In this document: piece by piece, positions 11,315 to 27,663 of the stretch
Layout of the letters: each line of letters opens with the position of its first letter
Numbering within the stretch: the stretch's first letter is position 1
IMG/VR virus record: IMGVR_UViG_3300021963_000364
Location: 1-35,630 of that record
Reading direction: 5' to 3' (one strand)
Length of the DNA stretch: 35,630 bases
Origin: a virus
The notes under the pieces: model-generated
Database searches by the model: none
What the model was told of the DNA's origin: nothing
What the model saw: the letters and a program-made list of their open reading frames with translations, nothing else
Translations under genes and position numbers: made by a program

Positions 11315-12097
11315 ATGAAACAAGTAATCTTTACAAAAAAAGAGATAACTAAAATTAAAGAATTATATTCTAAAGGTTTAAGTTGTACTGGTATTGCAAA
11401 AATTATTAATGTGAGTAAAACACCTATTATAAGAATATTAAAAACTGAAGGATTATTAAAAAAAGGGAATAGTGATGGTAAAAAAATTATATTAACTAAA
11501 CAACAAAAAGAAATTATTAAAAATTTGTATTTAATCAAAAATAAAAATTGTGAGGAAATTGGTAAAGAACTTAAATTAACTAAATCATTTATAAATAAAT
11601 ATCTTGGAACGGTTTCGTATAGAAGAACCAAAGGAAAGGCTAATTCTGTTAGAAGACAAGGTAAAGCATTACCTCAAAAAGTTAAAGAGAATATGAAAAT
11701 TGCTCAACAAAAATTAAGTCAAAGTGGAAATAGAAAACAAACAGGAGGTGTTTGTAAAACATTCATAATAAATGGTTTACGTTGTCAAGGTACTTATGAA
11801 AAGTTTTATATTGAAAAATTGATAAATGAAAATATTACATGTCCAAAAAATTACGGGTCTATAGTCACACCATTTGGGACTTATTATCCTGATTTTTCAT
11901 ATGATGATAGACTAATAGAAATTAAATCGGATTATACTTTTAATATTTTAATCGGTAAACAAATCAGTAGATTTACCAAACAATACGAAACAAAACAATT
12001 GGATAAATTAAAGTGGGTGAATGAAAACATTAAACCCGTAGAAATTTTAGTTGTTGATAAAAGAAATAATGAAGTAATAAAAAAGAATATTTTATGA
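11315..12097 (+). CDS. Free-standing homing-type endonuclease: HTH repeats plus PD-(D/E)XK nuclease
   Basis: 260 aa, very Lys/Ile-rich and thus unlike its Asn/Thr/Gly-rich structural neighbours. Residues 7-50 and 60-100 are two successive helix-turn-helix-like units (for example ELYSKGLSCTGIAKIINVSK), followed by a basic linker (103-143). The C-terminal part has the order expected of a PD-(D/E)XK fold: GTYEKFY (E162), YYPDF (P192-D193) and IEIK (E202, K204). DNA cleavage is therefore likely, with the HTH units recognising the target. It sits between two virion genes and overlaps the next start (ATGA), typical of phage intergenic homing endonucleases. A restriction-like defence nuclease is less likely in this setting. 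I see no intron signature around it. Confidence 0.82.
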   Translation: MKQVIFTKKEITKIKELYSKGLSCTGIAKIINVSKTPIIRILKTEGLLKKGNSDGKKIILTKQQKEIIKNLYLIKNKNCEEIGKELKLTKSFINKYLGTVSYRRTKGKANSVRRQGKALPQKVKENMKIAQQKLSQSGNRKQTGGVCKTFIINGLRCQGTYEKFYIEKLINENITCPKNYGSIVTPFGTYYPDFSYDDRLIEIKSDYTFNILIGKQISRFTKQYETKQLDKLKWVNENIKPVEILVVDKRNNEVIKKNIL

Positions 12098-13002: not shown

Positions 13003-16000
13003 TGGGGGTTAAAAAATATACTTGTCCACCACAATCAGCCACAGGTGCTGGTACGTTTTCTGACGATTTAGTTGGTTTACAACTTGTTTCGGGTGGAGGT
13101 CTTACGCAAGGTAATTTTAATTTTACTACATCAACTAATGAAAAGACCAATAGAACTTTTAGTACTGGAACCTTTTCGAACCCAATTAATCTTGATTCAT
13201 TAGGTATTGGTAATATTGAACAATCAAAATCAATTGTTGAGAATAATTTTAAAGTTTACCCTAATTTTGATTTAACACAGGTTACTAATTTTACATTGTA
13301 TGGGTCCATGACAAAAAGAATGTCAGCATCAATAACAACAATCATTAGTTATTTTCCTGCAGGTATTGAATCGACTTATATGGGGATTAATTATCTTACA
13401 GGTCCTACTGCGGTTAACATTATATACAATCCGACAAATAACGAAACTAAGTTTGATTTAGATGTTTCTAGATTAAGAAACCCTTTTGATGTTGATTTCA
13501 CTGTAAACTCCACAAGAAATTTACAATTAAAAGAAATCCAAGTATCTCCATTAAGAGATATGAGAGTTGAGTATGCAAAATATTCTCTTTATTATAAAAA
13601 TGTTGGATATAGTCTAACAGGTTTAATACCGACAACAAGTTTAACGGGAGGGACTTTAACTTTATATGTTGAAGGAAATCCATTTTCAGGTCAAACCTTA
13701 ACAAATGATGATTTAGTAATTAGACCAAATGACTATGAAGTTAATAAGTCATTCAATGAAAACCTCGATGAGGTTGAAAACTTCCTATTAAATAGGAATG
13801 TTGCACCAATTTATACCTCAACATTCAAAGTCCCAAGAGAGTCTGATGATGGGACTTATTATATTGAAAACCTTAATGTTTCATGGCCATTATATGGTTC
13901 ATGGAATCTTGATATTATTACAAAGTCTTTCGAAACATATTTAACAACTATTAGTAATGTAAGTGATTCATTTGATTTATATAAGACCAATTTAATTTCT
14001 AGATTTTTAACAACGGCATCATTTAATGAGTTTGATACTCAAGACCAAAAAGTTGAAAAAGTATTACAGATTTATGGTAAAAGTTTTGATGATATTAAAA
14101 AATATATCACCGCTTTATCATTTATGACTTCGGTAAATTATAATGTCGGTAATGACATACCGTCCCAGTTACTTAAGAATTTAGCACAAACACTTGGATG
14201 GGCAATAAATATTTCACCAATCTCTGAAACAGAATTATTGAATTCGGTTTTTGGTGATAAAAATAGTAATAACTCTGTTTATCCTGGTATTACACAACAA
14301 CAAACTCCCGATTCATTAAACTACCAATATTATAGGAATTTAATATTAAACTCGGCGTTTTTATTTAAATCTAAAGGTACTCGAAAATCTATTGAAATTT
14401 TATTACGATTGATTGGAGCTCCTGAAGCATTAATTGAATTTAATGAACATGTTTATTTAGCGGACCAAAAAATTAATTTATCGCAATTTAATACTCAGTT
14501 CGCTCAGATATCAGGAGGTACTTATCTCCAACAGATACCAATTTTAGACCAAACAGACATTTACTCTATTTTTGGTAATTCATACACAGGGTTTACGACT
14601 ACTAGTGATATCCAAGACGTTAATATTACAATTGATGAATATCCAATGGATGAGTATGGTTATCCTGTGACACCAACAAACTCTGAAAGTTATTTCTTCC
14701 AAATGGGTAGTGGTTGGTTTGAACAAACACCACAACATAGAGCACCTGAACAAGTTGATATAACTAATAGTATTTTTGTTGGTAACAATCCTAATTATCA
14801 AACGGTATTAATGCCTTATTCATACGGTCAAGAATATCTTAATCGTTATAGAAAATTCCCATTTATGGATTTAGGGTATCAATTAACAAAAACAATTGAT
14901 AATAATAAAAGTTGGGTTGATACTGAAATTGGTATTAGAAGTAATCTTGATGGTAATTTTAACTCAAGATATTTTGTTTCAGATGAAAGATTGGTTTTAA
15001 ACGTTAAAAACGTGGACCTATTCATGAATCCTGCTCAAGGTATTGCTTATGACGTATGGTATATGTCACAACAGTATAATTACCCAATACCTAATGAAGG
15101 TTTAAATTATGTTACACCAACGGCATGTGACCCGCATCCTTATTCACCATACCCAAGTAGAGGAGGAGTTGATTGGACTGAAATTAATCCACAACCAAAA
15201 AGAAAAACATTCTTTGAGTTTGCTCAAACATTTTGGTTAAATACAATTAATGTTAGAAACAGACAGTTCTCATCAAATGGTAAAACAGGTGGATATCCGA
15301 CTTTAGAGTCTATATTCTGGAGATACTTACAATCAAACGAAACTATTGGTATACCTAATGACAATTTCACATATAAAACAATGATGGAATATGTGAATGG
15401 GTTAGGTAATTATTGGATTAGATTGGTTGAACAAATGATACCTGCAACAACAATATGGAATACGGGAACCAAACTTGAAAACTCAATTTTCCATAGACAA
15501 AAATTTGTATGGAGAAGACAGGAAGGTTGTCAGTTAGTAAAAGTACCTTGTAAACCATGTTCAATAATCTCTAATTTATTCTCATATGACTGTCCATTAC
15601 AAACAGTTGAATGTCCTATTTACCCATGGACTAATCACCCAACAATACAAAATTTTGGAGGAGTTTTGGGAGTTTTATTAACGAATTATTTAACCGAGAA
15701 TGGGTATACATTAAACGATTGCGATTTTAATGGTATGACAACCGAATGGTTTGTTGATTTACAGATTAATGATATAACTGTTGTTCAATACCCATTCTTT
15801 AATGGTATTGGATATAGTAGTCCAATATACAGTGTACCAACAGGAACAACATATAATGATGGTCTTTTAATAGCCTTGGAGAGTTTAAAAAACGAAGGGT
15901 ATGATTATTATTTAACGGAAGATGAAACAGTGATATTATATAATCAAGTATGTTCAGAATCTGACACAGGTATCAACTTTAAATTGAATATCGGAATAAA

Positions 16001-16022
16001 CTTTAAAATTTTATGTAGTTAA
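13002..16022 (+). CDS. Large baseplate wedge protein with tail-protein-I/gp7-like segment
   Basis: 1006 aa, near the length of T4 gp7 (1032 aa). Residues about 330-475 are helical and end with KGTRKSIEILLRLIGAPE (about 457-474), the pattern seen in P2 gpI-type baseplate proteins and in gp7-like wedge proteins, where a KGT element precedes a helix and an Ile-Gly turn. Residues about 840-870 carry a Cys cluster (CKPCSII, then CPLQTVECP) that could bind metal or form disulphides. Start and stop overlap their neighbours (TAATG at both ends). Role: likely a wedge arm linking the inner baseplate to peripheral fibres. The gp7 equivalence is tentative; the baseplate assignment is firmer. Confidence 0.62.
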   Translation: MGVKKYTCPPQSATGAGTFSDDLVGLQLVSGGGLTQGNFNFTTSTNEKTNRTFSTGTFSNPINLDSLGIGNIEQSKSIVENNFKVYPNFDLTQVTNFTLYGSMTKRMSASITTIISYFPAGIESTYMGINYLTGPTAVNIIYNPTNNETKFDLDVSRLRNPFDVDFTVNSTRNLQLKEIQVSPLRDMRVEYAKYSLYYKNVGYSLTGLIPTTSLTGGTLTLYVEGNPFSGQTLTNDDLVIRPNDYEVNKSFNENLDEVENFLLNRNVAPIYTSTFKVPRESDDGTYYIENLNVSWPLYGSWNLDIITKSFETYLTTISNVSDSFDLYKTNLISRFLTTASFNEFDTQDQKVEKVLQIYGKSFDDIKKYITALSFMTSVNYNVGNDIPSQLLKNLAQTLGWAINISPISETELLNSVFGDKNSNNSVYPGITQQQTPDSLNYQYYRNLILNSAFLFKSKGTRKSIEILLRLIGAPEALIEFNEHVYLADQKINLSQFNTQFAQISGGTYLQQIPILDQTDIYSIFGNSYTGFTTTSDIQDVNITIDEYPMDEYGYPVTPTNSESYFFQMGSGWFEQTPQHRAPEQVDITNSIFVGNNPNYQTVLMPYSYGQEYLNRYRKFPFMDLGYQLTKTIDNNKSWVDTEIGIRSNLDGNFNSRYFVSDERLVLNVKNVDLFMNPAQGIAYDVWYMSQQYNYPIPNEGLNYVTPTACDPHPYSPYPSRGGVDWTEINPQPKRKTFFEFAQTFWLNTINVRNRQFSSNGKTGGYPTLESIFWRYLQSNETIGIPNDNFTYKTMMEYVNGLGNYWIRLVEQMIPATTIWNTGTKLENSIFHRQKFVWRRQEGCQLVKVPCKPCSIISNLFSYDCPLQTVECPIYPWTNHPTIQNFGGVLGVLLTNYLTENGYTLNDCDFNGMTTEWFVDLQINDITVVQYPFFNGIGYSSPIYSVPTGTTYNDGLLIALESLKNEGYDYYLTEDETVILYNQVCSESDTGINFKLNIGINFKILCS

Positions 16023-18364
16023 TGTCTTGTTTATTGACTTATACAACTAGTGTAACGGGTGACTGTTTAAATGATTTATCAGGTGCGTTTAGCATTGATA
16101 TTACAGGAAGTGCTCCTGATTATACTATCGAATGGATTAGTCCTTATACGGGAACCATTTCGTTAGGGCCTGGTATTACTACTTATGACCAAACAGGGTT
16201 ATCGGGTGGTACATATGTACTTAATATTATTGATAGTTGTTCGCCAACTAATACAGTACAAGCGGTTAACGTTTATATATCAACAGGAACTTGTGTAAGT
16301 CTAACAAGTGAAACAAATACAATATGTGGTTTAGATAATGGTGCGATAACCGCAACAACAACTAATGTTTATTCTACCGCAACATTTTCATTGTATGAAT
16401 ATAGTTCAGGATTTATAACTTCAGGAACTAGTTTTGGTAATACATATGATTTTGGTTCTCTATCTGCGGGAACTTATTATGTTATAGCCGATGACGGAGG
16501 TGGATGTACAGGTAAATCTGAAACATGTATTATTAAAGATTCGGACCCCCTTGATTTTAATTTTTATGTCATCAATGACGCGGGTTGTTCTATTAATTCA
16601 GGGGCAATATATGTGACAGGTTTAACAGGGACACCCCCATACACTTATTTATGGGCACCTGGAGGTCAAACAACCTCATCAATAACAGGTTTAACCACAG
16701 GACCATATAATGTAACAATAACCGATGCTTCAGGATGTATACAAACTAAGGGGACAACAGTTGCGACAGTGCCTCATGTTGGTTTGGGTACATTTACGGT
16801 GGTGAATCCATCATGTTTTGAATCTGATGGTGAAGTAACTGTGATAATAACAGGAGGAACCGCACCATTTTATTATTCAGGGTCAAACGGAACTATTGCG
16901 GTTAGTTTTGCAACTTCTTACACATTTACAGGAGTACCCGCAGGAATATTCTCAGTACAGGTGACAGATGCGGGATTATGTAATTTCACATCATCAACAA
17001 CTCTATTAACGCCAGGAGGATTAACCGTTACGTCAGTTAATTTAACGAATTCTATATGTAACAATAATGGAGGTGAAATACAAGTCGCAATATTTGGAGG
17101 GTCACCACCCTACACATATACTCTAACTGATTCTTTTGGTAATTCAACAGTAGTCACAGGTAGTTTTACAAATTGGACTTTTAATGGGTTATCATCAGGA
17201 ACTTATACTTTATCAATTAGTGATAAAGGACCTTGTGTATTTAAACAAGATTATGAAATTAATAATGTAGTTTTATTTGAATTAACAGTAGATACTATTG
17301 GGACAACTTGTAATTTAAGTGATGGTGAAGTGACTTTAAATATTACAACAGGTGGTGTTGGACCTTATCATTATCAAATTGATGGTGAGAGTATATTCAC
17401 AAGTGACCTATCATATACATTCAATGGGTTACCTTCAGGTAATTATACTGCAACAGTAACTGACAGTAATTATTGTACTCAAACATTACCATTCACAATT
17501 AATAGTTCTGATACTGTTGATTTTGTATTAGTTGGAACTGATTCCACCGATGGAACAAATGGTACTATCTCAACATTTATAACCACAGGAGAACCACCAT
17601 TTACACTATATTGGAGTCCAAATGTTAATGGACAAACCACATTAAATATTAATTCATTATCGGCAGGAACGTACACTTTAACTGTTGTTGATGATAATGG
17701 ATGTTCTCAAACAAGAGATATAATTATTAATGGATTTAACGTATTATCATCATATCAAACATTTAATATTTGTGATGATGATTTTATGAATACAGGACAA
17801 ACAATTAGAAAAGGTCCACAACAAATGTTAACCGAAGGTTTTTATGATTTAACAAGTGGTAATACTAATTGTATTTTAAATCAATCAATATTTTCTGCCC
17901 AAGTTACTGTTAGTGGTGTTACAGAGGAATTTTCATTTTATACGGGTACAACATTATCGGATTATCCATCTGACAGTTTTTTCTATGATATAGTAAAAGA
18001 AATCCTTTTAAATTATGAAGGAATTGGTGAGGTCTTAATTAATTATTTAGATAATAAAATAACAATAAATACAGACTGTAATTCCCCAACTCTTTTAGGT
18101 GATACTGATATAAAAATACAATTAAAAATCTCTTATGATATTAATTGTCAAGAATGTGATTATAAATGTTTGATTTATGAGGTAGGTTCATCATGTAGTA
18201 AATTTGGAGTGGGTGCGACCTTTACTTATTTTGATTGTGAAACATTAACTGAAGAAAGTATATTTGTCGGTAATTGTGGTCCAGGAGTCAATATATGTTC
18301 GTCAACAATCCCAACAGTGGTTGGAGATGGTAGTGTAGTTGTTACAGGAGTTAGTTGTCCTTAA
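16022..18364 (+). CDS. Adhesin with seven SprB-like Ig repeats and a C-terminal Cys-rich module
   Basis: 780 aa. Seven tandem repeats of about 70-80 residues (approximately 15-88, 92-171, 179-248, 256-329, 335-413, 419-493, 500-569) share a pattern: Cys near the start, DGE/NGA, GG-x-PPYTY, a GLSAGTYT turn and a V-x-D-x-x-GC end. This is the SprB repeat of Flavobacterium gliding adhesins. Residues 570-708 are a separate region. Residues 709-779 form a Cys-rich module (YFDCET, then CSSTIP) that also occurs in the minus-strand adhesin at 25366-27387. No signal peptide is present, consistent with virion assembly rather than secretion. It starts in a TAATG overlap with the baseplate operon and ends convergently with a small minus-strand gene. 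A tail-fibre or host-binding role is inferred. Confidence 0.82.
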   Translation: MSCLLTYTTSVTGDCLNDLSGAFSIDITGSAPDYTIEWISPYTGTISLGPGITTYDQTGLSGGTYVLNIIDSCSPTNTVQAVNVYISTGTCVSLTSETNTICGLDNGAITATTTNVYSTATFSLYEYSSGFITSGTSFGNTYDFGSLSAGTYYVIADDGGGCTGKSETCIIKDSDPLDFNFYVINDAGCSINSGAIYVTGLTGTPPYTYLWAPGGQTTSSITGLTTGPYNVTITDASGCIQTKGTTVATVPHVGLGTFTVVNPSCFESDGEVTVIITGGTAPFYYSGSNGTIAVSFATSYTFTGVPAGIFSVQVTDAGLCNFTSSTTLLTPGGLTVTSVNLTNSICNNNGGEIQVAIFGGSPPYTYTLTDSFGNSTVVTGSFTNWTFNGLSSGTYTLSISDKGPCVFKQDYEINNVVLFELTVDTIGTTCNLSDGEVTLNITTGGVGPYHYQIDGESIFTSDLSYTFNGLPSGNYTATVTDSNYCTQTLPFTINSSDTVDFVLVGTDSTDGTNGTISTFITTGEPPFTLYWSPNVNGQTTLNINSLSAGTYTLTVVDDNGCSQTRDIIINGFNVLSSYQTFNICDDDFMNTGQTIRKGPQQMLTEGFYDLTSGNTNCILNQSIFSAQVTVSGVTEEFSFYTGTTLSDYPSDSFFYDIVKEILLNYEGIGEVLINYLDNKITINTDCNSPTLLGDTDIKIQLKISYDINCQECDYKCLIYEVGSSCSKFGVGATFTYFDCETLTEESIFVGNCGPGVNICSSTIPTVVGDGSVVVTGVSCP
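16064..17728 (+). repeat. Seven tandem SprB-like protein repeats
   Basis: The repeats are clear at protein level (PPYTY, GLSAGTYT and DxxGC signatures) but diverged at DNA level, so they are old duplications kept by selection rather than fresh tandem copies. Repeat 7 lacks the first Cys, and repeat 1 has an altered PDYT in place of PPYT. Confidence 0.8.
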
Positions 18365-18537
18365 TCCTTTGGGTTTACTTTACCAATACTACCGTAAAGT
18401 TTCATTAACTTAAGAGACTCTTTATAGTTTTTCTCCAACCTATCAAGTTCTTTTTCACTAACCCCCCTTTCAGATGCTTCGTCAAGTGCCTGTTGAGACT
18501 CCACGACCATTTTTGATATTGTTTTAAGTAATTTCAT
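18361..18537 (-). CDS. Small convergent gene, 58-aa charged helical protein
   Basis: Reading the minus strand from the ATG at 18537 gives 58 codons ending in TAA, beginning MKLLKTISKMVVESQQ and ending GSIGKVNPKD. The sequence is amphipathic and helical (SEKELDRLEKNYKESLKLMK), sensible for a small regulatory or scaffolding protein; I recognise no family. Evidence that it is real: it fills an otherwise empty stretch, it has TATTTAT exactly 5 bases before its ATG, and its stop shares TTAA with the stop of the convergent adhesin gene. It is the only minus-strand gene within the tail block. Confidence 0.65.
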   Translation of the reverse strand: MKLLKTISKMVVESQQALDEASERGVSEKELDRLEKNYKESLKLMKLYGSIGKVNPKD

Positions 18538-18542
18538 ATACT

Positions 18543-18549
18543 ATAAATA
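18543..18549 (-). promoter_or_regulatory. TATTTAT element for the 58-aa minus-strand gene
   Basis: On the minus strand TATTTAT ends 5 bases before the ATG at 18537, matching the spacing seen before the plus-strand genes at 80, 19605 and 21053. Its presence on the opposite strand in the correct orientation argues that the element tracks gene starts. Confidence 0.45.
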
Positions 18550-18608
18550 TCTCCAACCTCACCATTTATTAAAATTAAAACTTTTGTATTTTTAAAACAA
18601 ATAGTATT

Positions 18609-19589
18609 ATGAAGTATAATTTAGTATTCGTAACCGCGCAACCTGATGTTCCCTATTTCCATTGGCAATCAAAAATATATTGTCATAATTTTATTGAAAT
18701 GGGTATTAAACCTGAACAAATACATATTATTTTTGGTATTGTAGATGGAAAAACAGAACCATCTAAAGAATCTTTGGAATTAAAGTCTATAGGTGTTAAT
18801 GTTCATCATTATATGGATGATAGACACCAAAAACATTATATACCAAATATAAAACCATTCTTGGTATCCAAATGGATAAAAGACTATCCTGAACTTGGTA
18901 AATGTTTCTTTCTACATGATGCGGATATTATATTTAGAGAATTACCAAACTTCGAAGAATTACTATCAGATGATATATCATACCTTTCAGATACCAAAGG
19001 ATATATTGGATATGATTATATAAATAGTTGTTGTGAAAGGTATGAGAAACAATACCCCAATTCAGATAAAGGTCAGTTAATCCAAGAGATGGTTGATGTT
19101 ATTGGAGTTGAGGTTGAATGTGTTAAATGTAATCAAGATAATTCAGGTGGTGGTCAATATATTATTAAAAATACGGACCATTTTATATGGAATAAAATCT
19201 ATGAAGATTGTACACCATTGTACGACCAAATGATGAGTTATCAAAAAAGATTTCCGATAAATCCTGGTGAAATACAATTTTGGACTGCAGAAATGTGGTC
19301 TTTATTATGGAACCTTTGGTTGTTTGGGGTAGAAACTAAAATAACTGATGAGTTAAGTTTTTCTTGGGCAACCGATAGTGTTAGAATATATGAAAAATAC
19401 CCAATACTTCACATGGCGGGGGTAACTCATGATTTAAAAGCTACAAAATTTTATAAGGGGGAATTTATTAATGTTAATCCGTTAGATAAGTTAAAAGAAA
19501 ATATAAATTACTTCGACTATGTTGACAGTGACAGTTCAACAATAAAATATGTTGATATAATGAAAAGGATTGTAGAAAATCAATTCTAA
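18609..19589 (+). CDS. GT-A-type glycosyltransferase
   Basis: 326 aa. An N-terminal Rossmann-like strand (YNLVFVTAQP) is followed at residues 99-110 by CFFLHDADIIF, a hydrophobic strand ending in a D-x-D pair (D104, D106) of the kind that binds the metal and nucleotide sugar in GT-A enzymes. The middle contains GGGQYIIK and two Trp-rich segments, plausible parts of the acceptor site. No membrane segment, so it should act in the cytoplasm. It lies among adhesin genes whose products have long Thr and Thr-Pro linkers, so glycosylation of virion adhesins is an attractive inference; modification of a host surface polymer or of phage DNA is also possible. The upstream 70 bases contain no clear promoter that I can name. 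Confidence 0.72.
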   Translation: MKYNLVFVTAQPDVPYFHWQSKIYCHNFIEMGIKPEQIHIIFGIVDGKTEPSKESLELKSIGVNVHHYMDDRHQKHYIPNIKPFLVSKWIKDYPELGKCFFLHDADIIFRELPNFEELLSDDISYLSDTKGYIGYDYINSCCERYEKQYPNSDKGQLIQEMVDVIGVEVECVKCNQDNSGGGQYIIKNTDHFIWNKIYEDCTPLYDQMMSYQKRFPINPGEIQFWTAEMWSLLWNLWLFGVETKITDELSFSWATDSVRIYEKYPILHMAGVTHDLKATKFYKGEFINVNPLDKLKENINYFDYVDSDSSTIKYVDIMKRIVENQF

Positions 19590-19592
19590 ATG

Positions 19593-19599
19593 TATTTAT
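19593..19599 (+). promoter_or_regulatory. TATTTAT element before the second SprB-like adhesin
   Basis: TATTTAT lies 5 bases before the ATG at 19605, in the 15-base gap after the glycosyltransferase gene. Confidence 0.45.
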
Positions 19600-19604
19600 C
19601 GTAG

Positions 19605-21026
19605 ATGAGTAAAGATAAAATTCCATACCAAATCACAGGGGAGACTTGTTATATTCCAACAGGGTATAATGAATGTAATGTAATAACACTATTTGAAATG
19701 GGGGTTGAGTGTGTTGTTAAACAACCGTCACAACCTGAATCATCAGATGGTATTGCGTCTCTTGTTATAACAGGAGGAACACCTCCTTATAGTATTGTTT
19801 GGTCTAATGGAAATATCGGACCAATAATTTATAATTTAAGTGCGGGTTCATATGAAGCCGTTGTTGTGGACTCTTATGGAGATTTTACCGCAAATACCAC
19901 ATGTGTATTAACAGGTACTACAACCACAACATCAACAACATCAACATCAACTACCTCACCTTACCCTGACCAATATGAGTTATGTATGGTGACTAATATG
20001 TTGGTACAAGGAAGTTATGTTGAAACTCAAACACATTATACACCAAATGGAATATATGAAGGAAAACCGACATGGTTATCTGATGACAACCAAACATCGA
20101 TTATTTGGGACACTTCTACTTCTCAATGGTTGGTATCTGCGGCAACACCAACACTTTATGTTATATCAAATCTTAACCCAACTTACCCTCCAATATACGG
20201 TAGTTGGTTCTTAATTGGTGCGACAGGAAGCGTTATTGTTTATGAAGGATTTTGTAATTCAGTTCCTGTAGGTTTACGACAACTTAGAAGTACTGAAATG
20301 GTGACACCGTTAACAATGAATGTTACACAAAATCAAACAATGTGTGGTTGTGATGGAGGATTAACTATTTCTGCTAACGGAGGAACACCACCATATACTT
20401 ATTCAATCGATGGAGGAATGACATACAAAACTATTCCTATATTTAGTAATTTGTGTTCGGGGTCTTATAATGTAATTGTAACTGATGACAGTGGAATAAT
20501 AACAAGTAAAACCATCATACTAAACCCACCATCAAAACCTACAACTTATTCGGTGTCATTAAATACGACTTCAGAACTTGTGGAGAATTCAAATACAAGT
20601 ATCGGTAAAAAATATACGACAACTTTAAATATTTCACCATCATTACCTGATAATGTTTCCTTAACGTTTGATATTAACCATTTAAATACTTCAAAATCAT
20701 CACCACAATTTGACTCGTCAATATCTGAAAGTAATAGTGAATTATTAATTAATGGGGAAGGTGTTAGAAGTCTTTTTACTGAAGACAGTTCAGAAACACC
20801 AAGTACAATACCTGGGTGTCAATCTAACAAAGTTTACATAATCTCAAAAACGGAAAAATGGGAACAGATAACAATAACTAATACAGATACTATTGTATTA
20901 AATACAAAAACTGTAGTGATTAAAAATGAATCGGTTAATTGTTATATTGGAACGAGTGATGAGAAATATTCATTAAGTAATTTAAAAATAAGAGGTTGTA
21001 ATTGTTGTTCGGCAATAACTTCATAA
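19605..21026 (+). CDS. Modular adhesin: SprB-like repeat, poly-Thr linker, Trp module, second SprB-like repeat
   Basis: 473 aa. Residues about 36-103 form an SprB-like repeat (ITGGTPPYSIVWSNG, then NLSAGSYEAVVVDSYG). Residues 104-118 are a Thr/Ser linker (TGTTTTTSTTSTSTTS). Residues 124-217 form a module with Cys at each end and spaced Trp residues (NGIYEG, WLSD, IIWDTSTSQW, YEGFC) that resembles a segment of the minus-strand adhesin. Residues 237-306 are a second SprB-like repeat (ANGGTPPYTYSIDGG). The remaining 165 residues are an unrecognised Ser/Asn/Thr-rich domain ending CNCC. No signal peptide. It is flanked by the glycosyltransferase and the fibre gene, each junction carrying a TATTTAT element. 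Likely a tail-associated adhesin. Confidence 0.75.
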   Translation: MSKDKIPYQITGETCYIPTGYNECNVITLFEMGVECVVKQPSQPESSDGIASLVITGGTPPYSIVWSNGNIGPIIYNLSAGSYEAVVVDSYGDFTANTTCVLTGTTTTTSTTSTSTTSPYPDQYELCMVTNMLVQGSYVETQTHYTPNGIYEGKPTWLSDDNQTSIIWDTSTSQWLVSAATPTLYVISNLNPTYPPIYGSWFLIGATGSVIVYEGFCNSVPVGLRQLRSTEMVTPLTMNVTQNQTMCGCDGGLTISANGGTPPYTYSIDGGMTYKTIPIFSNLCSGSYNVIVTDDSGIITSKTIILNPPSKPTTYSVSLNTTSELVENSNTSIGKKYTTTLNISPSLPDNVSLTFDINHLNTSKSSPQFDSSISESNSELLINGEGVRSLFTEDSSETPSTIPGCQSNKVYIISKTEKWEQITITNTDTIVLNTKTVVIKNESVNCYIGTSDEKYSLSNLKIRGCNCCSAITS

Positions 21027-21040
21027 AAAAGAAATATACA

Positions 21041-21047
21041 TATTTAT
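21041..21047 (+). promoter_or_regulatory. TATTTAT element before the 846-aa fibre gene
   Basis: TATTTAT (within CATATTTATAG) lies 5 bases before the ATG at 21053, the same arrangement as at 68-74, 18543-18549 and 19593-19599. Confidence 0.45.
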
Positions 21048-21052
21048 AGTCA

Positions 21053-23593
21053 ATGGGATTTATAATAAAAAATACATCAGGGTTAATTAATACAAGGTTA
21101 ACTGATACAGGTAGACAAAAATTATCGCAAGGTAATTTTAATATCTCTTATTTCCAAATTGGGGATAGTGAGGTATCGTACAATACCTTACCAACAAGTT
21201 ACAACCAATTTGATACCATGATTTTAGAGCCAGCGTTTAATGCTCAAAACTCAAGTGGTGTGCCACAATCAAATAAAGAAAATGTTAAATATCCGTATTA
21301 TGTTGATGGTTCTGTGGGTAATACTTATGGAATCCCGTTTATGGATTCTATTGTTTCACCTGTTTATAACAGAGCAGTAATGAGAGGTTTCTTTACAGGT
21401 AATACAACTGACGATACAATTAGTTGGAGTGCATTAACTAATAATTTTTACGCCATTAATGCGAACTATGTAGTTCAGATGAACTCGTTAGTTGGTACAA
21501 ATACAATAACATTAGTAAGTAACCCAAGTAATCCTGAAGTAGTTAGAGAACCAGCAATTGGTGACATTATCACCATTTATTATGATGGTAAAGGGATGGA
21601 TGATTGTAATTGTTTGAATATACCAACCCCAACACCGACACCAACAATCTCAATGACACCATCAGTTACTGCGACATTTGGAACATCACCTACACCAACC
21701 CCATCGGCAAGTGGTTTATATCCTTGTGATTCACCAACACCTACACCAACACCTTCTAAAACACCATGTTTAACGCCAACACCAAGTAGACAATGTCCAC
21801 TACCTCCACCACCTGATTGTTTGGTGGATATGAGTAGTTGTTATTCTATGATAACTTATAAAATTACTAATATCTGTTTAGGTGAAATAACCTTAGATAG
21901 ACCAACACCCGACTTTTCAAATGTAACTAATCTTTGTTATGGTAGAGTAATTGTTTATCCTCCTAATATGACAACAATTTATGATAGTGTTACACCTAGA
22001 GAACATTGGAATGATGATGTTATTAATTTTGAATCAGTTTGTTATACTGATGAATTTGATGTTAAGATTTGGAATATGAATATTCCATGGTCAGAAAATC
22101 CTGCAGGATTATTCTCCTCTATCAGTAAAGATTATACTAATTTTGGTTCGGTATCTTATTTAGGTACTAAAGAGTATTTTGGTTACGCATCAAGTAGTGG
22201 ACAAACAGATAGTAGTTCTGTTTATTATGTTAACTCATTTGGAGATATTGTAACGGTTAAACCTGAACAACAAAAGGCTATTGGTATTATCCATTATACA
22301 AATCAAACAGTTGATTTCTTCTATGGTGAGAAATTTGCATTACAACCACATGACCCGTCAAACCCTGAAGATACAACAGGTGAAGCAAGAAACTTCAAAT
22401 TACATATTCCTTGGTTAATGTGGCATAAGAATCCTGATTGTTGTAACGGACAAACATTTTGGGTAGACCCTCCAGGATTTGATGAATTAGACTTATTCAA
22501 AGTACAAACGATTCAGTCAACTAAGAATGTTGATATGAACTCACCTGGTATTAGATATTACCATCTTTGGGACACTAACCCAAATATTGACGGATATCCT
22601 AATAGAATTGGTAAAGTATTCCCTGACGATAAATTGGTTATTATTGATGATGAAGAAATTATTGCTTCGATGTCATATAAATCAAATCGAAATTGGACAT
22701 TACCATCGCCTAAGATTTCATTAATAACACCTAACACATGTGGTACTGATAGTACAAGTGTTGCAGGTATTTTAACAGGTAAGACTGAGTATCTATATGT
22801 GACTTACCGTTTAAGTAATAGTAGTATGTTTACTAACTCATTACACTGTAATTATTATTCTTTAATTCAAGGACCTAACATTGATTGTTCACCAATCACA
22901 TCACAAAACGTGGCGGTTAGATTCGGTGGTGAGTTTGGATGTTTAACACAACCTTATCAACCAACAACTACGACTACTACAACGTATTATCCTGGCACTA
23001 CAACAACGACAACGACTTCATTTATTGGTACTACAACTACGACTACGACTTTATGTCCAACATATTGTGATGTTACTCAAGGGTTCATGGCTGATAAATT
23101 TGAAATTATTTGTCAAAAAGTTGATGGTACAGGAAGACCAAACTCCTCTGAATGGAAGATTATTGATTTCACAAGTCAATTAATATCATCTATGGTTAAT
23201 GGTTATATCACTCAAGAAGGGATGACAGGTAATACTTTTGTAATTACCCAACAAGAATACGATGATGCTCCGTCATACAATTTAAATAATTATATACCTT
23301 TAACACCTGTTGGATATACAGGTACATCTCTTAACTTCGGTGATGAATATTATTTCTATGGTTCATTAGAAAGTGATATTGAAGCAACCATTTATGAGAT
23401 GAGATATAAGATTAATTTAGGTCAAGCTGAGTTTCAAACGACCTCAAATCCTACATGGACAAATGGAAATCCTTCTTATGTTACAGAAATAGGACTTTAC
23501 GATTCTAACAAAAATCTTATGATTATATCAAAAATGCAGTCTCCTGTTTTAAGACAAGGTATTCAGCAGTTTTTGATTAAATTTGACATTTAA
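21053..23593 (+). CDS. Tail fibre-like protein with Pro-Thr and poly-Thr linkers
   Basis: 846 aa. The N-terminus (IIKNTSGLINTRLTDTGRQK, then FQIGDSEV) is of a kind found at the start of phage fibre or baseplate-attached proteins and probably attaches the protein to the tail. Residues about 190-255 are a Pro-Thr linker (PTPTPTP units) broken by Cys residues and ending PLPPPPDC. A body of about 380 residues follows. Residues 638-666 hold three seven-Thr runs separated by YYPG and SFIG. The final 180 residues form another folded region. This layout, rigid or glycosylatable spacers between folded blocks, suits a receptor-binding fibre. It is followed 3 bases later by the resolvase gene. Confidence 0.75.
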   Translation: MGFIIKNTSGLINTRLTDTGRQKLSQGNFNISYFQIGDSEVSYNTLPTSYNQFDTMILEPAFNAQNSSGVPQSNKENVKYPYYVDGSVGNTYGIPFMDSIVSPVYNRAVMRGFFTGNTTDDTISWSALTNNFYAINANYVVQMNSLVGTNTITLVSNPSNPEVVREPAIGDIITIYYDGKGMDDCNCLNIPTPTPTPTISMTPSVTATFGTSPTPTPSASGLYPCDSPTPTPTPSKTPCLTPTPSRQCPLPPPPDCLVDMSSCYSMITYKITNICLGEITLDRPTPDFSNVTNLCYGRVIVYPPNMTTIYDSVTPREHWNDDVINFESVCYTDEFDVKIWNMNIPWSENPAGLFSSISKDYTNFGSVSYLGTKEYFGYASSSGQTDSSSVYYVNSFGDIVTVKPEQQKAIGIIHYTNQTVDFFYGEKFALQPHDPSNPEDTTGEARNFKLHIPWLMWHKNPDCCNGQTFWVDPPGFDELDLFKVQTIQSTKNVDMNSPGIRYYHLWDTNPNIDGYPNRIGKVFPDDKLVIIDDEEIIASMSYKSNRNWTLPSPKISLITPNTCGTDSTSVAGILTGKTEYLYVTYRLSNSSMFTNSLHCNYYSLIQGPNIDCSPITSQNVAVRFGGEFGCLTQPYQPTTTTTTTYYPGTTTTTTTSFIGTTTTTTTLCPTYCDVTQGFMADKFEIICQKVDGTGRPNSSEWKIIDFTSQLISSMVNGYITQEGMTGNTFVITQQEYDDAPSYNLNNYIPLTPVGYTGTSLNFGDEYYFYGSLESDIEATIYEMRYKINLGQAEFQTTSNPTWTNGNPSYVTEIGLYDSNKNLMIISKMQSPVLRQGIQQFLIKFDI
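21622..21815 (+). repeat. Pro-Thr coding low-complexity tract
   Basis: Short CCAACA/CCTACA-type units encode Pro-Thr dipeptides. A related tract lies in opposite orientation near 24905-25110, so the two form an imperfect inverted pair around the resolvase gene. Confidence 0.6.
22964..23050 (+). repeat. Three spaced seven-Thr runs
   Basis: The block encodes T7-YYPG-T7-SFIG-T7. The Thr codons are a mixture of ACA, ACT and ACG, so this is not a simple DNA microsatellite; the amino-acid pattern itself seems to be under selection. Confidence 0.75.
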
Positions 23594-23596
23594 TAT

Positions 23597-24199
23597 ATGA
23601 AAAAAGCAACAAAGGAAAGCCCAAAAGTTCTTGGGCTTGATGTCTCTTCCAAAACCATTGGATGGGCATTATTCGATATACAAACAAGAGAATTATTAGA
23701 GTTAACTCATGTTTCTCCTGTACCTAAACCAAAGGAAGAAAATAAGATTAAGGAACTTATTTTAAAAAGTGAAATTTTTAAAACCAAGTTAATTCAATAT
23801 AAAGATTTGGGTATTACTAAGGTTATCATTGAGGAACCTTTAATGAACAGTAATAACGTCTATACCATCCAAACCTTATTAAGATTTAATACGTTAATTA
23901 CAAAACAAATCTTTGATGTATTAGGAATAGTACCTGACTATATATCAACCTATAATTCAAGAAAATTCGCTTTCCCTGAATTAGTTAGAGAGAATGATAA
24001 AGGTAAACATGTATTGTTTGGAGGATTACCTAAAGACTGTGATAAAAAACAAATCATTTGGGATTTGGTCGCCAAAAGAGAACCACAAATTACTTGGGCA
24101 TATACAAGAAACAATACTCTTAAGAAAGAAAACTTTGACCAAACAGATGCTTACTGTTGCGTGTTAGGTTACATGTCTCAAGAAGGAATTTGGAAGTAA
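23597..24199 (+). CDS. RuvC-like Holliday junction resolvase
   Basis: 200 aa, RNase H-like fold. The first strand VLGLDVSSKTIGWALFD supplies D15; the second acidic site is in VIIEEPL (E79/E80); the C-terminal helix FDQTDAYCCVLGY supplies D181/D184. This D...E...D layout and length match RuvC-type resolvases, which cut four-way junctions to free replicated or recombining DNA for packaging. The start follows the fibre gene by 3 bases, so it is probably co-transcribed with late genes, when junction resolution is needed. It ends before a strong hairpin terminator. A different RNase H-fold nuclease is possible but less likely. Confidence 0.82.
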   Translation: MKKATKESPKVLGLDVSSKTIGWALFDIQTRELLELTHVSPVPKPKEENKIKELILKSEIFKTKLIQYKDLGITKVIIEEPLMNSNNVYTIQTLLRFNTLITKQIFDVLGIVPDYISTYNSRKFAFPELVRENDKGKHVLFGGLPKDCDKKQIIWDLVAKREPQITWAYTRNNTLKKENFDQTDAYCCVLGYMSQEGIWK

Positions 24200-24224
24200 T
24201 ATCGTTTAATATACCGATAATGTG

Positions 24225-24258
24225 AAATATCGTCTAAAAAGACGATATTTTTGTTTTT
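24225..24258 (+). terminator. Strong Rho-independent terminator between convergent units
   Basis: A perfect 10-bp stem (AAATATCGTC at 24225-24234, GACGATATTT at 24241-24250) with a 6-base A-rich loop is followed by TTGTTTTT. It ends the plus-strand fibre/resolvase unit and lies just past the stop of the minus-strand adhesin operon; that side has a weaker U-tract. Confidence 0.9.
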
Positions 24259-25360
24259 AACAAGGTAACACATTCAGTATTAAACCTGTTGGGTCTACTT
24301 GAACTGATACTTTACTTGTTGGTGATAGATAATCAAACAAACCTGGCCACAATGAAACCCAATTATTCCCTCCATTTATAAGTACACTTCCCGAATTATC
24401 GTATAAGTATTGACCAATAGCGATTGAAAATCCATTAGTAATATAAGTTGATTGTGATAAAATATTAGAACATGATAAAGTATTATTTGCCGAACTAACA
24501 CTATTATTACCTATATAATTACCAGCACTTCCTGGTGGTGAACTTTTTATTCCATAATTAAAATTAAATTGGGTTGGACTAATTGGGTATGAGCCTGATG
24601 AGGATAATATTGTTAATCTGAATAATTTTTGACCATAAACAGTCGGACCTACTCTTGTTGTAACACCTGTTATATCGGCAGTACCAAGTGAATTTAACGG
24701 AACTGTGAATGTTGATGTGACACCCTCAGTCAACGAGTTTGAATTTAACGTTGTAGTTCCTGTCATTGTGTTAGTCGCGGGCCAATTAATTTGAATAGTT
24801 AATACATCAAATGGTACACCACTTAAACTGATAACACCTGAAGGAATGTTAAATGATGTATAACTATTAATGGCGTAAACACTTCCAGATGAGTTAAATC
24901 TTGCAAATGGCGTTGGTGGTGTTGGTGTTGGTGTTGGTGTTTTGGTTGGGGTTATAGTATTTGTTGGGGTTAATGATATTGTTGGTGTTATTGTTGGGGT
25001 TAATGATATTGTTGGTGTTATTGTTGGGGTTAATGATATTGTTGGTGTTATTGTTGGTGTGATTGTTGGTGTAATTGTTGGTGTGATTGTTTGAGTTGGG
25101 GTTAAACTTGGAGTTGGACTTGGCAAAAATTCATTACAATAAAAAGTTTCAAATCTTTCACACCCATCAAATGTTATTACTTTAATACCAACCGCAGGTG
25201 CGGTATCGAATTGAGATGGTAAAATTATATTATTAGACGGTGGAACTGTTGTACTAATAGTAGCAATCAATATACAATTATTTCCATACACATCACATGC
25301 GAAAATCTGATATGGTATTGTAATACTACCCGTTATGGATGTTAGTTCTATTGATGTCAT
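24257..25360 (-). CDS. Adhesin with long Thr-Pro stalk and C-terminal head domain
   Basis: 367 aa from the ATG at 25360, 5 bases after the preceding stop; an upstream TTG at 25378 lies inside the previous gene and is less likely. Residues 1-75 form the short N-terminal module shared with the two genes upstream ([20 protein letters not shown], then IKVITFDGC). Residues 80-151 are a Thr-Pro-Ile/Ser stalk of TPTI and TPTISL units, partly encoded by a perfect DNA repeat. Residues 152-367 are a beta-rich domain without Cys until its end. The pattern anchor-stalk-head resembles a receptor-binding protein. It is the last gene of a three-gene minus-strand operon and ends at the terminator at 24225. 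Confidence 0.75.
24961..25050 (-). repeat. Perfect 30-base tandem repeat, three copies, in the stalk coding region
   Basis: 24961-24990, 24991-25020 and 25021-25050 are identical. Each unit encodes ten residues in frame ([10 protein letters not shown] pattern), and 12-base GTTGGTGT-type units continue to about 25090. Perfect identity suggests recent expansion; copy-number change would lengthen or shorten the stalk without a frameshift. Confidence 0.9.
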
Positions 25361-25365
25361 TTTAA

Positions 25366-27387
25366 TTATAAAACACAATTACCATCAATACAATCTCCTA
25401 AAACTGTTACTGATGTTATATTAGTAGTACTTAATACTAATGGGGTTGTTAATGAACAGAAAGGTTGTGTCGATGAATAATCATTAACAACTATAACTTG
25501 TTGTACATTATTACAATCGGTATATACTACAGAAACACTTGACGGATTACCTATACTGACAAAATCTGATTTTGCTTTTGAGGTTTGTTTACCAACAAGT
25601 TGTTTAATAGGACCATCATTCGAAACTCTATAACATTTACATGTTAAAGGAGGACATGAATCATCAACACAGATTCCAAGTTTTGTAATACTATGAACCA
25701 ACAAAGAATTTGTTGTTGGTGTTGTTAGTGAACATACATATGTTGGGATGAGTTCATCGCCACTTGACACCATGGTTGAAATACCTTTACAAGTAATATA
25801 ATTAAAATCGACAGAATCTTTACCACCAAGTAATTCATAACAATAACAAGGGATTCCACTTGGGGTTGGGGTTAAAGTAGGTGTAGGTGTTGGGGTTGAA
25901 CTTGGAACTATCACACATGAAACACAACCACCCAAATTAGAATATCCTGTCGGACCCTCAACCAATTCAATCGAATTAATTCCAATAATATTATTATTAA
26001 TACCAACGTATGAAATACATTTAAACTCACCATCAACATACGCTTTGAATACCATAAATTCCTCTAAAGTATCTCCCGAAGGAGTAGGAAGTAATTCTGT
26101 TGTGTAGTACATCATACCGTTAACACAATCTTGGAATTGTTTACTACTTGGACAACTAATATTACCCTCAATAGTTGTGAATGATACATCACCTGTAACA
26201 TTACAAGGTCTCTCAATAATTGGGGTTGAACTTGGGGTCACTGTTGGCGTTGGAGTCGGTGTCGGACTGTAACTTTCAATTGTTGCGTCAACACCAATAA
26301 CTGAACAATAACTTGTTGAACTTGGAGTCGGAGTATTTGTTGGTGTATTTGTTGGTGTGAGACTTGGAGTTGGACTTGGTTCGACCAAACAATCAAATAT
26401 TGCTTCGAAATCAAATGTTGAACAGGCAATCGTTGTCGTGGTTGTTGTCGGGCAATCACCCTCAAAGAAATATTCGTCGCATAAATCAGGACATTTTGAA
26501 AAACAAGGTGATTTACCTGATAGGATACAAAAACCACCTAATGATGTTGATAAACACCACTGTAATTCTGACGTGTTGTAGTAAATATAATAATTGTGAG
26601 AACTACTAATCCATGATGAATAACCATCATAATCGGAGTCCTGATAATACGTGTCATCGTATTCATTACCCGTATTTGTAATACAATAAGTACCTGAACA
26701 TGTTTTACAAATTGGATTATCAGAACAAAGACCTAAATTAGTTAATGTCCAAGTACATTCATCTACTCGTTTAGGTTCTGTTGTTGAACACAAATAATGT
26801 GTCCCCGAATCCAAACCAATGGTACTAACTTTACCTGTCTCACAATCCGTATATTGTATTGTACATTTTGAGGGTAAATCGATTTGATAACAATTACAAC
26901 AACCTACACAAACTTCACTTTTTAGACAATCCTCACAAGTTTTAAATCTGTCAACCACTTGAGAATACATTTGGCTCCCTAAAGGAGTGTTTGAAGGGAT
27001 ATTCTGTTCAATTTTTACTAAAGTATAACAACCTAAAGGTAATGTATTATTAATGGTACAATCAATTGGGTTTGTAAATTCAGAAATACAAAAGGCGTTT
27101 CCTATATTACCTATTTGTAATGGAAAACTAGGTTGAACACTACCTAAAATATGGAAAACGTCATTACCACAACAACTACTAAATGAAAGACAATATCTTG
27201 AATCCCATGTCTTAACTCCTAAATCTATATTAGGAACAAAAGTGGTTAAATCGGCGGTTATATAATATATTTGACCTGTCTCAATTGTAACTGAACAAGA
27301 GTTACCATAACAATCGATAAAATTTTGTATTTGTGGGACACCAGTCCCATTGGTTAATTCATAAGACGAGCAAATTATTGTAGCCAT
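25366..27387 (-). CDS. Large Cys-rich modular adhesin
   Basis: 673 aa, ATG at 27387 overlapping the stop of the upstream gene (TAATG on the minus strand). The N-terminal 66 residues resemble the modules of its operon partners (ELTNGTG, DCYGNSC, LGVKTWD). Three copies of a Cys-rich module lie at 164-221, 514-573 and 583-666 (C-x-CY, YTDC, CSTT/CSLTTP, LGxC). Residues 232-312 resemble the Trp module of the 19605-21026 adhesin. A six-Thr run (314-319) and several Thr-Pro linkers (337-358, 374-389, 495-510) separate the blocks. There are over 40 Cys, many at module ends, suggesting disulphides or metal sites. No signal peptide. A host-binding virion protein is inferred. Confidence 0.75.
25390..26898 (-). 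repeat. Three copies of a Cys-rich protein module
   Basis: Copies at 26898-26725, 25848-25669 and 25641-25390 (minus strand) share the order C-x-C-Y, Y-x-x-C, C-S-x-T-x-P and LG-x-C over about 60-85 residues. A fourth copy closes the plus-strand adhesin at about 18146-18361. I cannot match it to a named domain. Confidence 0.65.
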
Positions 27388-27602
27388 TAGATAGTAAGTG
27401 TTTGAGTTATTATACAGTGATTGTTATCAACAATTTTCAGAGTAAAGTCATCTTGGCTTGACAAAATAGACGGTAACGTAAAGGTATATGGTAATGTTGA
27501 AATAGTAACGACATATACACATGTAGTAATTGGATTATCACATAGATAAACATGATATGGACTCGCCCCTGTAATATTGTTGATAGTAATGTCTGTAGGC
27601 AT
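27387..27602 (-). CDS. Small one-module protein, first gene of the adhesin operon
   Basis: 71 aa. The whole protein corresponds to the N-terminal module of the 24257-25360 adhesin: ITGASPYHVYLCD against [15 protein letters not shown], then a shared IST, LPS, and a K(I/V)...D..C ending. It lacks stalk and head and may be a stand-alone subunit that caps or docks its larger relatives. Its stop overlaps the next ATG by one base, implying coupled translation. The divergent intergenic region upstream (27603-27685) should hold its promoter; ATAAATA at 27614-27620 reads TATTTAT on this strand. Confidence 0.68.
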   Translation of the reverse strand: MPTDITINNITGASPYHVYLCDNPITTCVYVVTISTLPYTFTLPSILSSQDDFTLKIVDNNHCIITQTLTI

Positions 27603-27620: not shown

Positions 27621-27624
27621 AATA

Positions 27625-27663
27625 TAATGGGGTAGTAAAACTTGTGAAGATTGACTACCATTA
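27625..27663 (+). other. Hairpin in the primase leader region
   Basis: TAATGG-GG-TAGT (27625-27636) pairs with ACTACCATTA (27654-27663) as a 10-bp stem with a 2-base bulge and a 17-base loop, followed by TTATTTTT. It could attenuate transcription entering the primase gene, or be an mRNA structure. The primase ATG is 22 bases downstream. Confidence 0.4.

Follow-up and report, generated by a model that had tools for sequence, protein, structure and literature searches.

The G segment of phage Mu and the C segment of phage P1 are invertible tail-fibre cassettes, in which inversion of the DNA changes the end that is attached to a tail protein. More generally, the receptor-binding and tail proteins of phages show recent exchange of domains, which has been tied to the arms race with their hosts (Smug et al., 2023; PMC10684548). 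The virions of mycobacteriophages have been described, in the accounts given in PMC12619734 and PMC12363180, as carrying glycans at the C-terminal ends of the subunits that make up capsid and tail tube (Freeman et al., 2023; doi 10.1016/j.chom.2023.05.028). Here we describe a locus of the IMG/VR virus record IMGVR_UViG_3300021963_000364, the whole of which (35,630 bases) was analysed and is called the window below. The locus adjoins gp25/gp6 baseplate genes, and the explanation that best accounts for its features, which we consider quite probable, is a myophage adhesin or tail-tip cassette with exchangeable tips, joints in the linkers and a glycosyltransferase that acts on poly-threonine. As in the cases collected by Smug et al. 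(2023), domains are exchanged among receptor-binding or tail proteins, but here genes on opposite strands of a single locus draw on one pool of tips, the joints are linkers rich in threonine and proline (Thr-Pro linkers), and the block of genes between them has been inverted repeatedly. A preliminary description of this DNA had stated that no described phage system with such a set was known to its author; this holds for the exact set in the literature that we searched, but not for domain shuffling as a phenomenon, which is known (PMC10684548).

The window opens with T4-type baseplate wedge genes (gp25-like, 80-535; gp6-like, 542-2380) and has replication genes and a sigma factor at its far end. 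Between these lie, in order on the plus strand, P1006, P780, GT, P473, P846 and a resolvase gene, followed on the minus strand by P373, P673 and P71. All six of the open reading frames (ORFs) from which the preliminary description had built a mosaic adhesin system are present where it placed them, and the 'resolvase' among them is a RuvC-like Holliday-junction resolvase and not a site-specific recombinase. The features of the locus, several of them assigned with profile hidden Markov models (HMMs), are:

15648-16010, plus strand: C-terminal MID domain of P1006 (residues 883-1003), common to P780 (HMM of P780 residues 572-708, match at 1.6e-24)
16022-18364, plus strand: P780, 780 residues, with seven Ig/SprB repeats, MID (residues 577-707) and a Cys-module tip (residues 716-779) (Pfam SprB, 7.6e-19; module HMMs)
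18609-19589, plus strand: GT, a phrog_4417 protein (5.2e-66) with an HDADIIF (DxD) motif, proposed from its association with poly-threonine to be a poly-Thr glycosyltransferase of virion proteins
19605-21026, plus strand: P473, 473 residues, with an Ig domain, Thr linker (19911-19958), Trp module (19962-20264), a further Ig domain and two more domains (Pfam SprB; module HMMs)
21053-23593, plus strand: P846, 846 residues, a conserved protein of the block (468 related IMG/VR stretches), with a Thr-Pro linker at about 21620-21802
22964-23050, plus strand: poly-Thr linker of P846, which reads (T7)-YYPG-(T7)-SFIG-(T7)
23597-24199, plus strand: RuvC-like Holliday-junction resolvase, the final gene of the block (phrog_159, 4.6e-6)
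24257-25378, minus strand: P373, 373 residues from a TTG or 367 from the ATG at 25360, with N-module, Thr-Pro linker and fC tip (module HMMs)
24260-24904, minus strand: fC tip domain of P373 (residues 159-373), found on three different carrier genes across relatives
24908-25126, minus strand: Thr-Pro linker of P373, with tandem repeats of 12, 18 and 30 nucleotides, a proposed recombination joint
25366-27387, minus strand: P673, 673 residues, with pN, Thr and Thr-Pro linkers and modules (module HMMs; AlphaFold2)
26707-26898, 26431-26703, 25915-26208, 25654-25848 and 25375-25641, minus strand: the Cys, Trp, C2, Cys and Cys modules of P673, respectively
27387-27602, minus strand: P71, 71 residues, the N-module alone (HMM match to the N-terminus of P373, 1.2e-24)

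Twenty-four segments were cut from the six proteins and used in iterated profile searches against 1,521 proteins of relatives. The segments proved to be related. Ig/SprB repeats occur seven times in P780 and twice in P473, both of which exceed the Pfam gathering score of 28 bits for SprB, PF13573 (67.5 bits, 7.6e-19, and 40.8 bits, 1.7e-10, respectively). The Trp module is common to P473 (residues 120-220) and P673 (229-319; 1.1e-16), the Cys module occurs at residues 164-227, 514-578 and 583-671 of P673 as well as 716-779 of P780 (8e-8), and P71 corresponds to residues 7-77 of P373 (1.2e-24). To these can be added MID, which the preliminary description had missed and which links P780 (577-707) to the baseplate-cluster protein P1006 (883-1003; 1.6e-24). 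The claim that modules are reused across all six proteins therefore stands for the Ig/SprB, Trp, Cys and N-terminal modules but fails for P846, which in the window has Thr and Thr-Pro linkers and no folded module in common with the other five; the Thr linker of P846 is interrupted by a Cys module in four relatives (L083, L084, L088 and L124). The repeats of P780 and P473 match the family of SprB, the gliding adhesin of Bacteroidota, but here they are encoded by a virus, beside a baseplate cluster. Fold comparison of the P673 model gave no match in the PDB at E <= 0.001 and four in BFVD at the same threshold, three of them to uncultured phage proteins without named function and one nameless; the model of P846 was poor (predicted local distance difference test score, pLDDT, 51.7). 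The architecture of these proteins, their position and their variability suggest that the cassette binds a receptor or the host.

Relatives, about 80 of them and most known from fragment records, came from IMG/VR, which was scanned by short exact peptides. Such scans retrieved 468 related stretches with P846, 208 with GT and a single relative with P673, from which P673 appears to evolve much faster; P846 is 62-87% identical within A1. The locus is not invariant among these genomes and recurs in three layouts. In layout A the plus strand carries P780, an N-module gene, often another large ORF, GT, P473, P846 and RuvC, and P673 and P71 follow on the minus strand; layout B is layout A with the block inverted; and in layout C, that of the window, the block is in the plus orientation and the N-module gene is a minus-strand neighbour of P673. 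Nearly all complete relatives have the full set of seven Ig repeats and MID in P780; the tail after MID varies from none to more than 450 residues. As a unit, the block GT-P473-P846-RuvC has the inverted orientation in 13 of 57 distinct genomes, and its orientation has changed at least four times on the tree of P1006, which is outside the block, and on that of P846, which is inside it, in the same clades. The N-module gene tightly trails its upstream neighbour, mostly P780 or P673 (median gap 1 nucleotide), and inversion therefore shifts the block between two co-directional strings of genes.

The tips have also changed carriers. The fC tip is borne by P373 on the minus strand in the window and in L084, by P780 on the plus strand in L087, and by P673 on the minus strand in L106 and L134. 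P780 of L087 has a Cys module, a Thr-Pro linker and then fC, reading ...GICSPLP(TP linker)...VARFGG; P373 of the window has the linker followed by fC, (TP linker)...FARFNS; and P780 of the window ends in ...GVSCP, at the end of the Cys module where the linker of L087 starts. A single inversion from the P780 linker to the N-module linker would turn the layout of L087 into that of the window, with fC moved to P373. In L084 an 84-base-pair inverted repeat, 81% identical, connects the linker of P780 with that of the N-module gene, the homolog of the P373 linker; most of the inverted repeats within a locus lie in linkers. Other tips are common to P780 and P673 and to P473 and P673 (66% over 474 residues). 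Where tips of different genes are homologous, the homology has its start beside a linker in each of the two proteins in 19 of 64 cases; for random positions the figure is 1.7%. Modules are thus shuffled between genes of opposite orientation, as the preliminary description had supposed, and neither of the outcomes that it had named as refuting this, unrelated segments or an invariant locus, was obtained. A search for fC by peptide pattern in viral and genome collections found none, with the limit that short exact peptides also missed the known copies in L087 and L134.

GT belongs to phrog_4417, a family without annotated function, and it matched nothing in Pfam, NCBIfam or the sequences of the PDB; its homologs conserve the HDADIIF motif, of which HDxDI is invariant. 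The label of glycosyltransferase, given in the preliminary description, finds no counterpart in these collections, but the association with poly-threonine makes such a role likely. Among the relatives a poly-Thr run is present in P846 of 56 of the 60 that have GT and of one of the 11 that lack it, and that one is cut by the end of the contig before the position of GT. Homologs of phrog_4417 are found in 74 isolated phages, whose hosts include Enterococcus, Staphylococcus, Lactobacillus and Lactococcus. In 14 of the 19 of these that were examined a strict poly-Thr tract is encoded within 200 nucleotides of GT, usually by the gene immediately upstream, and beyond this count the Lactococcus phages 1706 and bIL285 have shorter poly-Thr C-termini. 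GT is most likely a glycosyltransferase that acts on the poly-Thr of virion proteins. The closest known case is that of the mycobacteriophages (Freeman et al., 2023), which, as far as PMC12619734 and PMC12363180 describe it, involves a glycosyltransferase encoded by the phage, as GT probably is; the locus described here differs in host group, in the unannotated family phrog_4417 and in the proposed poly-Thr target. A possible likeness of GT to plant hydroxyproline/serine glycosyltransferases is backed by no profile and was not used.

In the model that we favour, conserved scaffolds (P780 with its seven Ig repeats and MID, the N-module genes, P673, P473 and P846) would bear end domains that can be exchanged, held on flexible linkers of Thr-Pro or Thr. 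Since the DNA of these linkers is repetitive and lies on both strands, homologous or short-homology recombination within them could join genes, and between linkers on opposite strands it would invert the intervening block and swap the tips. Co-infecting phages would also exchange DNA, probably adding further tips, and the GT of the block probably attaches O-linked sugars to the poly-Thr linkers of these same virion proteins. The Thr-rich linkers may then have two jobs, as DNA the joints for exchange of tips between strands, and as protein the target of the linked enzyme of the widespread phrog_4417 family, whose sugar coat would turn them into mucin-like stalks for new receptor-binding tips; this double role is a tentative proposal, to which we give slightly less than even credence.

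Other explanations have to be set against this model. That the apparent modules are unrelated segments of low complexity, or simply rich in Cys and Trp, can hardly be true: the Thr- and Pro-rich tracts are indeed of low complexity, but the folded parts match outside the linkers at 1e-7 to 1e-24, which refutes this reading, and AlphaFold2 models P673 mostly as confident, separate beta-rich modules between linkers of pLDDT <50. A block of defined extent that occurs in both orientations could also be a programmed invertible cassette, whether phase-varied by a site-specific invertase or diversified by a retroelement. This is very unlikely, because not one of 67 pairs of genomes at least 80% identical is discordant in orientation (25 of 64 pairs are at 70-80% identity), and block inversion is accordingly a recurrent rearrangement and not a phase switch. 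Moreover, Pfam profiles of serine recombinases/invertases (PF00239), integrases (PF00589) and reverse transcriptases (PF00078), for which controls were positive, found no serine or tyrosine recombinase, no retroelement and no reverse transcriptase in 11 relatives, mostly fragment records of up to 322 kb, and the block in the window is not bordered by a clean inverted repeat. The likeness to Mu and P1 thus extends to the proposed change of the end attached to a tail protein by DNA inversion, but no invertase was found, clean repeats do not flank the block of the window and the orientation is stable among close relatives: inversion here is evolutionary rather than programmed. A third explanation confines the swapping of tips to co-infection, in which two crossovers at or close to linkers would exchange them between genomes, and regards inversions as separate, rare events that move no tips. 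Domain shuffling is known in phage receptor-binding proteins (PMC10684548), tip families are common to distant relatives, and of the 18 P780 tips that have a homolog on the minus strand, 13 link genomes that agree in orientation. We nevertheless hold this to be rather unlikely, as the fC case fits one inversion exactly, down to the tip that is missing from P780 of the window and the residual inverted repeat of L084, and the genes involved point towards each other from opposite strands on either side of the block. We infer that inversion was the step that transferred this tip.

For GT, the alternative is that its target is DNA or the host surface and that it is near poly-threonine by coincidence. 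Work cited in PMC12619734 describes other phage glycosyltransferases whose targets are DNA or host antigens, and GT has no sequence match to any solved enzyme, but we judge this alternative improbable on three grounds. Linkage of GT to a poly-Thr gene next to it recurs in unrelated phages of Firmicutes, Actinobacteria and Bacteroidota. Among major tail proteins of the phiFL1A type, those of all three GT-carrying phages end in poly-Thr and those of seven phages without GT anywhere in their records do not; in the open frames taken from those seven genomes no window of 15 residues contains more than seven Thr. Finally, in an independent draw GT was present in 12 of the 98 loci picked for in-frame poly-Thr-coding DNA and in none of the 120 that were chosen for poly-Ser (P = 4.6e-5). 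Eleven of the 12 have it within 34 nucleotides of a poly-Thr ORF on the same strand, and L306, which is among the 12, seems from its sequence to be a member of the lineage of the window. Several findings count against the explanation that we prefer. The passage from layout B to layout C by inversion is one clear case, reconstructed from its end states, and the contig of L087 ends ahead of the reciprocal tip. Only five of the 18 P780 tips pair genomes of opposite orientation, which means that much exchange is not tied to inversion and that exchange between co-infecting phages likely contributes. The inverted repeats of linkers could mirror common amino-acid repeats instead of marking sites of recombination. 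GT has been lost about three times on the tree, too few for significance, with loss of poly-Thr alongside in 2.6 of 3 independent pairs. Lastly, 86 of the 98 poly-Thr loci (among L191-L310) have no phrog_4417 gene in the DNA examined, so that poly-Thr does not imply GT. Poly-Thr proteins are common in viral contigs, and other modifying enzymes may sit beside those without GT.

Our analysis suggests that abundant uncultivated phages could change their adhesin tips through repetitive linkers, with no need of a dedicated recombinase. It also gives a testable function to a phage family annotated as unknown, several of whose isolated carriers are available for bench work.

The virus is probably a large myophage of a Bacteroidota host, and its relatives are a group of freshwater viruses, probably with hosts of the same phylum. 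The ribosomal protein bS21 (PF01165) is encoded in five of the eight large relative contigs tested, and the largest relatives reach 322 kb. In bS21, baseplate genes and large genomes they resemble the freshwater myophages of Bacteroidetes for which a bS21 gene has been described (Chen et al., 2022; PMC9723584), a likeness in gene content and genome size; the main text of that study mentions neither SprB nor inversion nor glycosyltransferase. Searches of isolated phages with P1006, P846 and P673 gave no match. Within the string of baseplate genes the window has a gene for a 260-residue protein resembling HNH endonucleases or regulators (11315-12097; phrog_8446, phrog_323), and in several relatives P395 and P302 adjoin without this gene between them.

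Two promoter-like elements were noted at the locus:

18542-18549, plus strand: TATAAATA, a promoter-like element in the gap between P780 and GT, found upstream of GT where GT follows a gap
27621-27648, minus strand: TTCACA-N16-TATATT, a promoter-like element upstream of P71

The sequence TATAAATAT occurs in 20 of 37 upstream regions, against 0.7 expected. Read as a T4 late promoter from the window alone, TATAAATA is not enriched (10 matches against 9.5 expected), and for this element conserved positions in relatives alone are informative, the consensus by itself being meaningless. The TATATTTAT part of the P71 element is found in 49 of 55 upstream regions of relatives, against 0.5 expected, at -13 to -29 from the start codon. 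A 22-nucleotide inverted repeat (91%; 26923-26944 and 27636-27657) gives P673 an internal plus-strand copy of TAGTCAATCTTCACAAGTTTTA, the element upstream of P71; this second copy is possibly an antisense element or a product of chance.

Further observations concern single relatives. The P780 tail of a close relative (L082:3603-6785) has an extra region of about 350 residues with a CFIKGTKITLASG stretch that is reminiscent of Hint/intein-like domains, although Pfam returned nothing of that kind. In L122 (261-5432), an ORF of 1,724 residues that separates the N-module gene from GT matches a grass antifreeze beta-roll family (PF21300, 2.6e-11); its sibling ORFs have a common N-terminus like MALLTDR..GVT..DLIHIV.P.D.SQNPAGSSYK and look like tail fibres. 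A neighbour of GT of 404-410 residues in L114 (4804-6015), with homologs in L065, L104, L115, L119 and L154, matches the virion structural protein family phrog_1645 (1.2e-48) and lies on either strand relative to its flanks. A different, larger rearrangement is seen in L143-L146, in which the primase/exonuclease side has the opposite orientation with respect to P1006 and RuvC.

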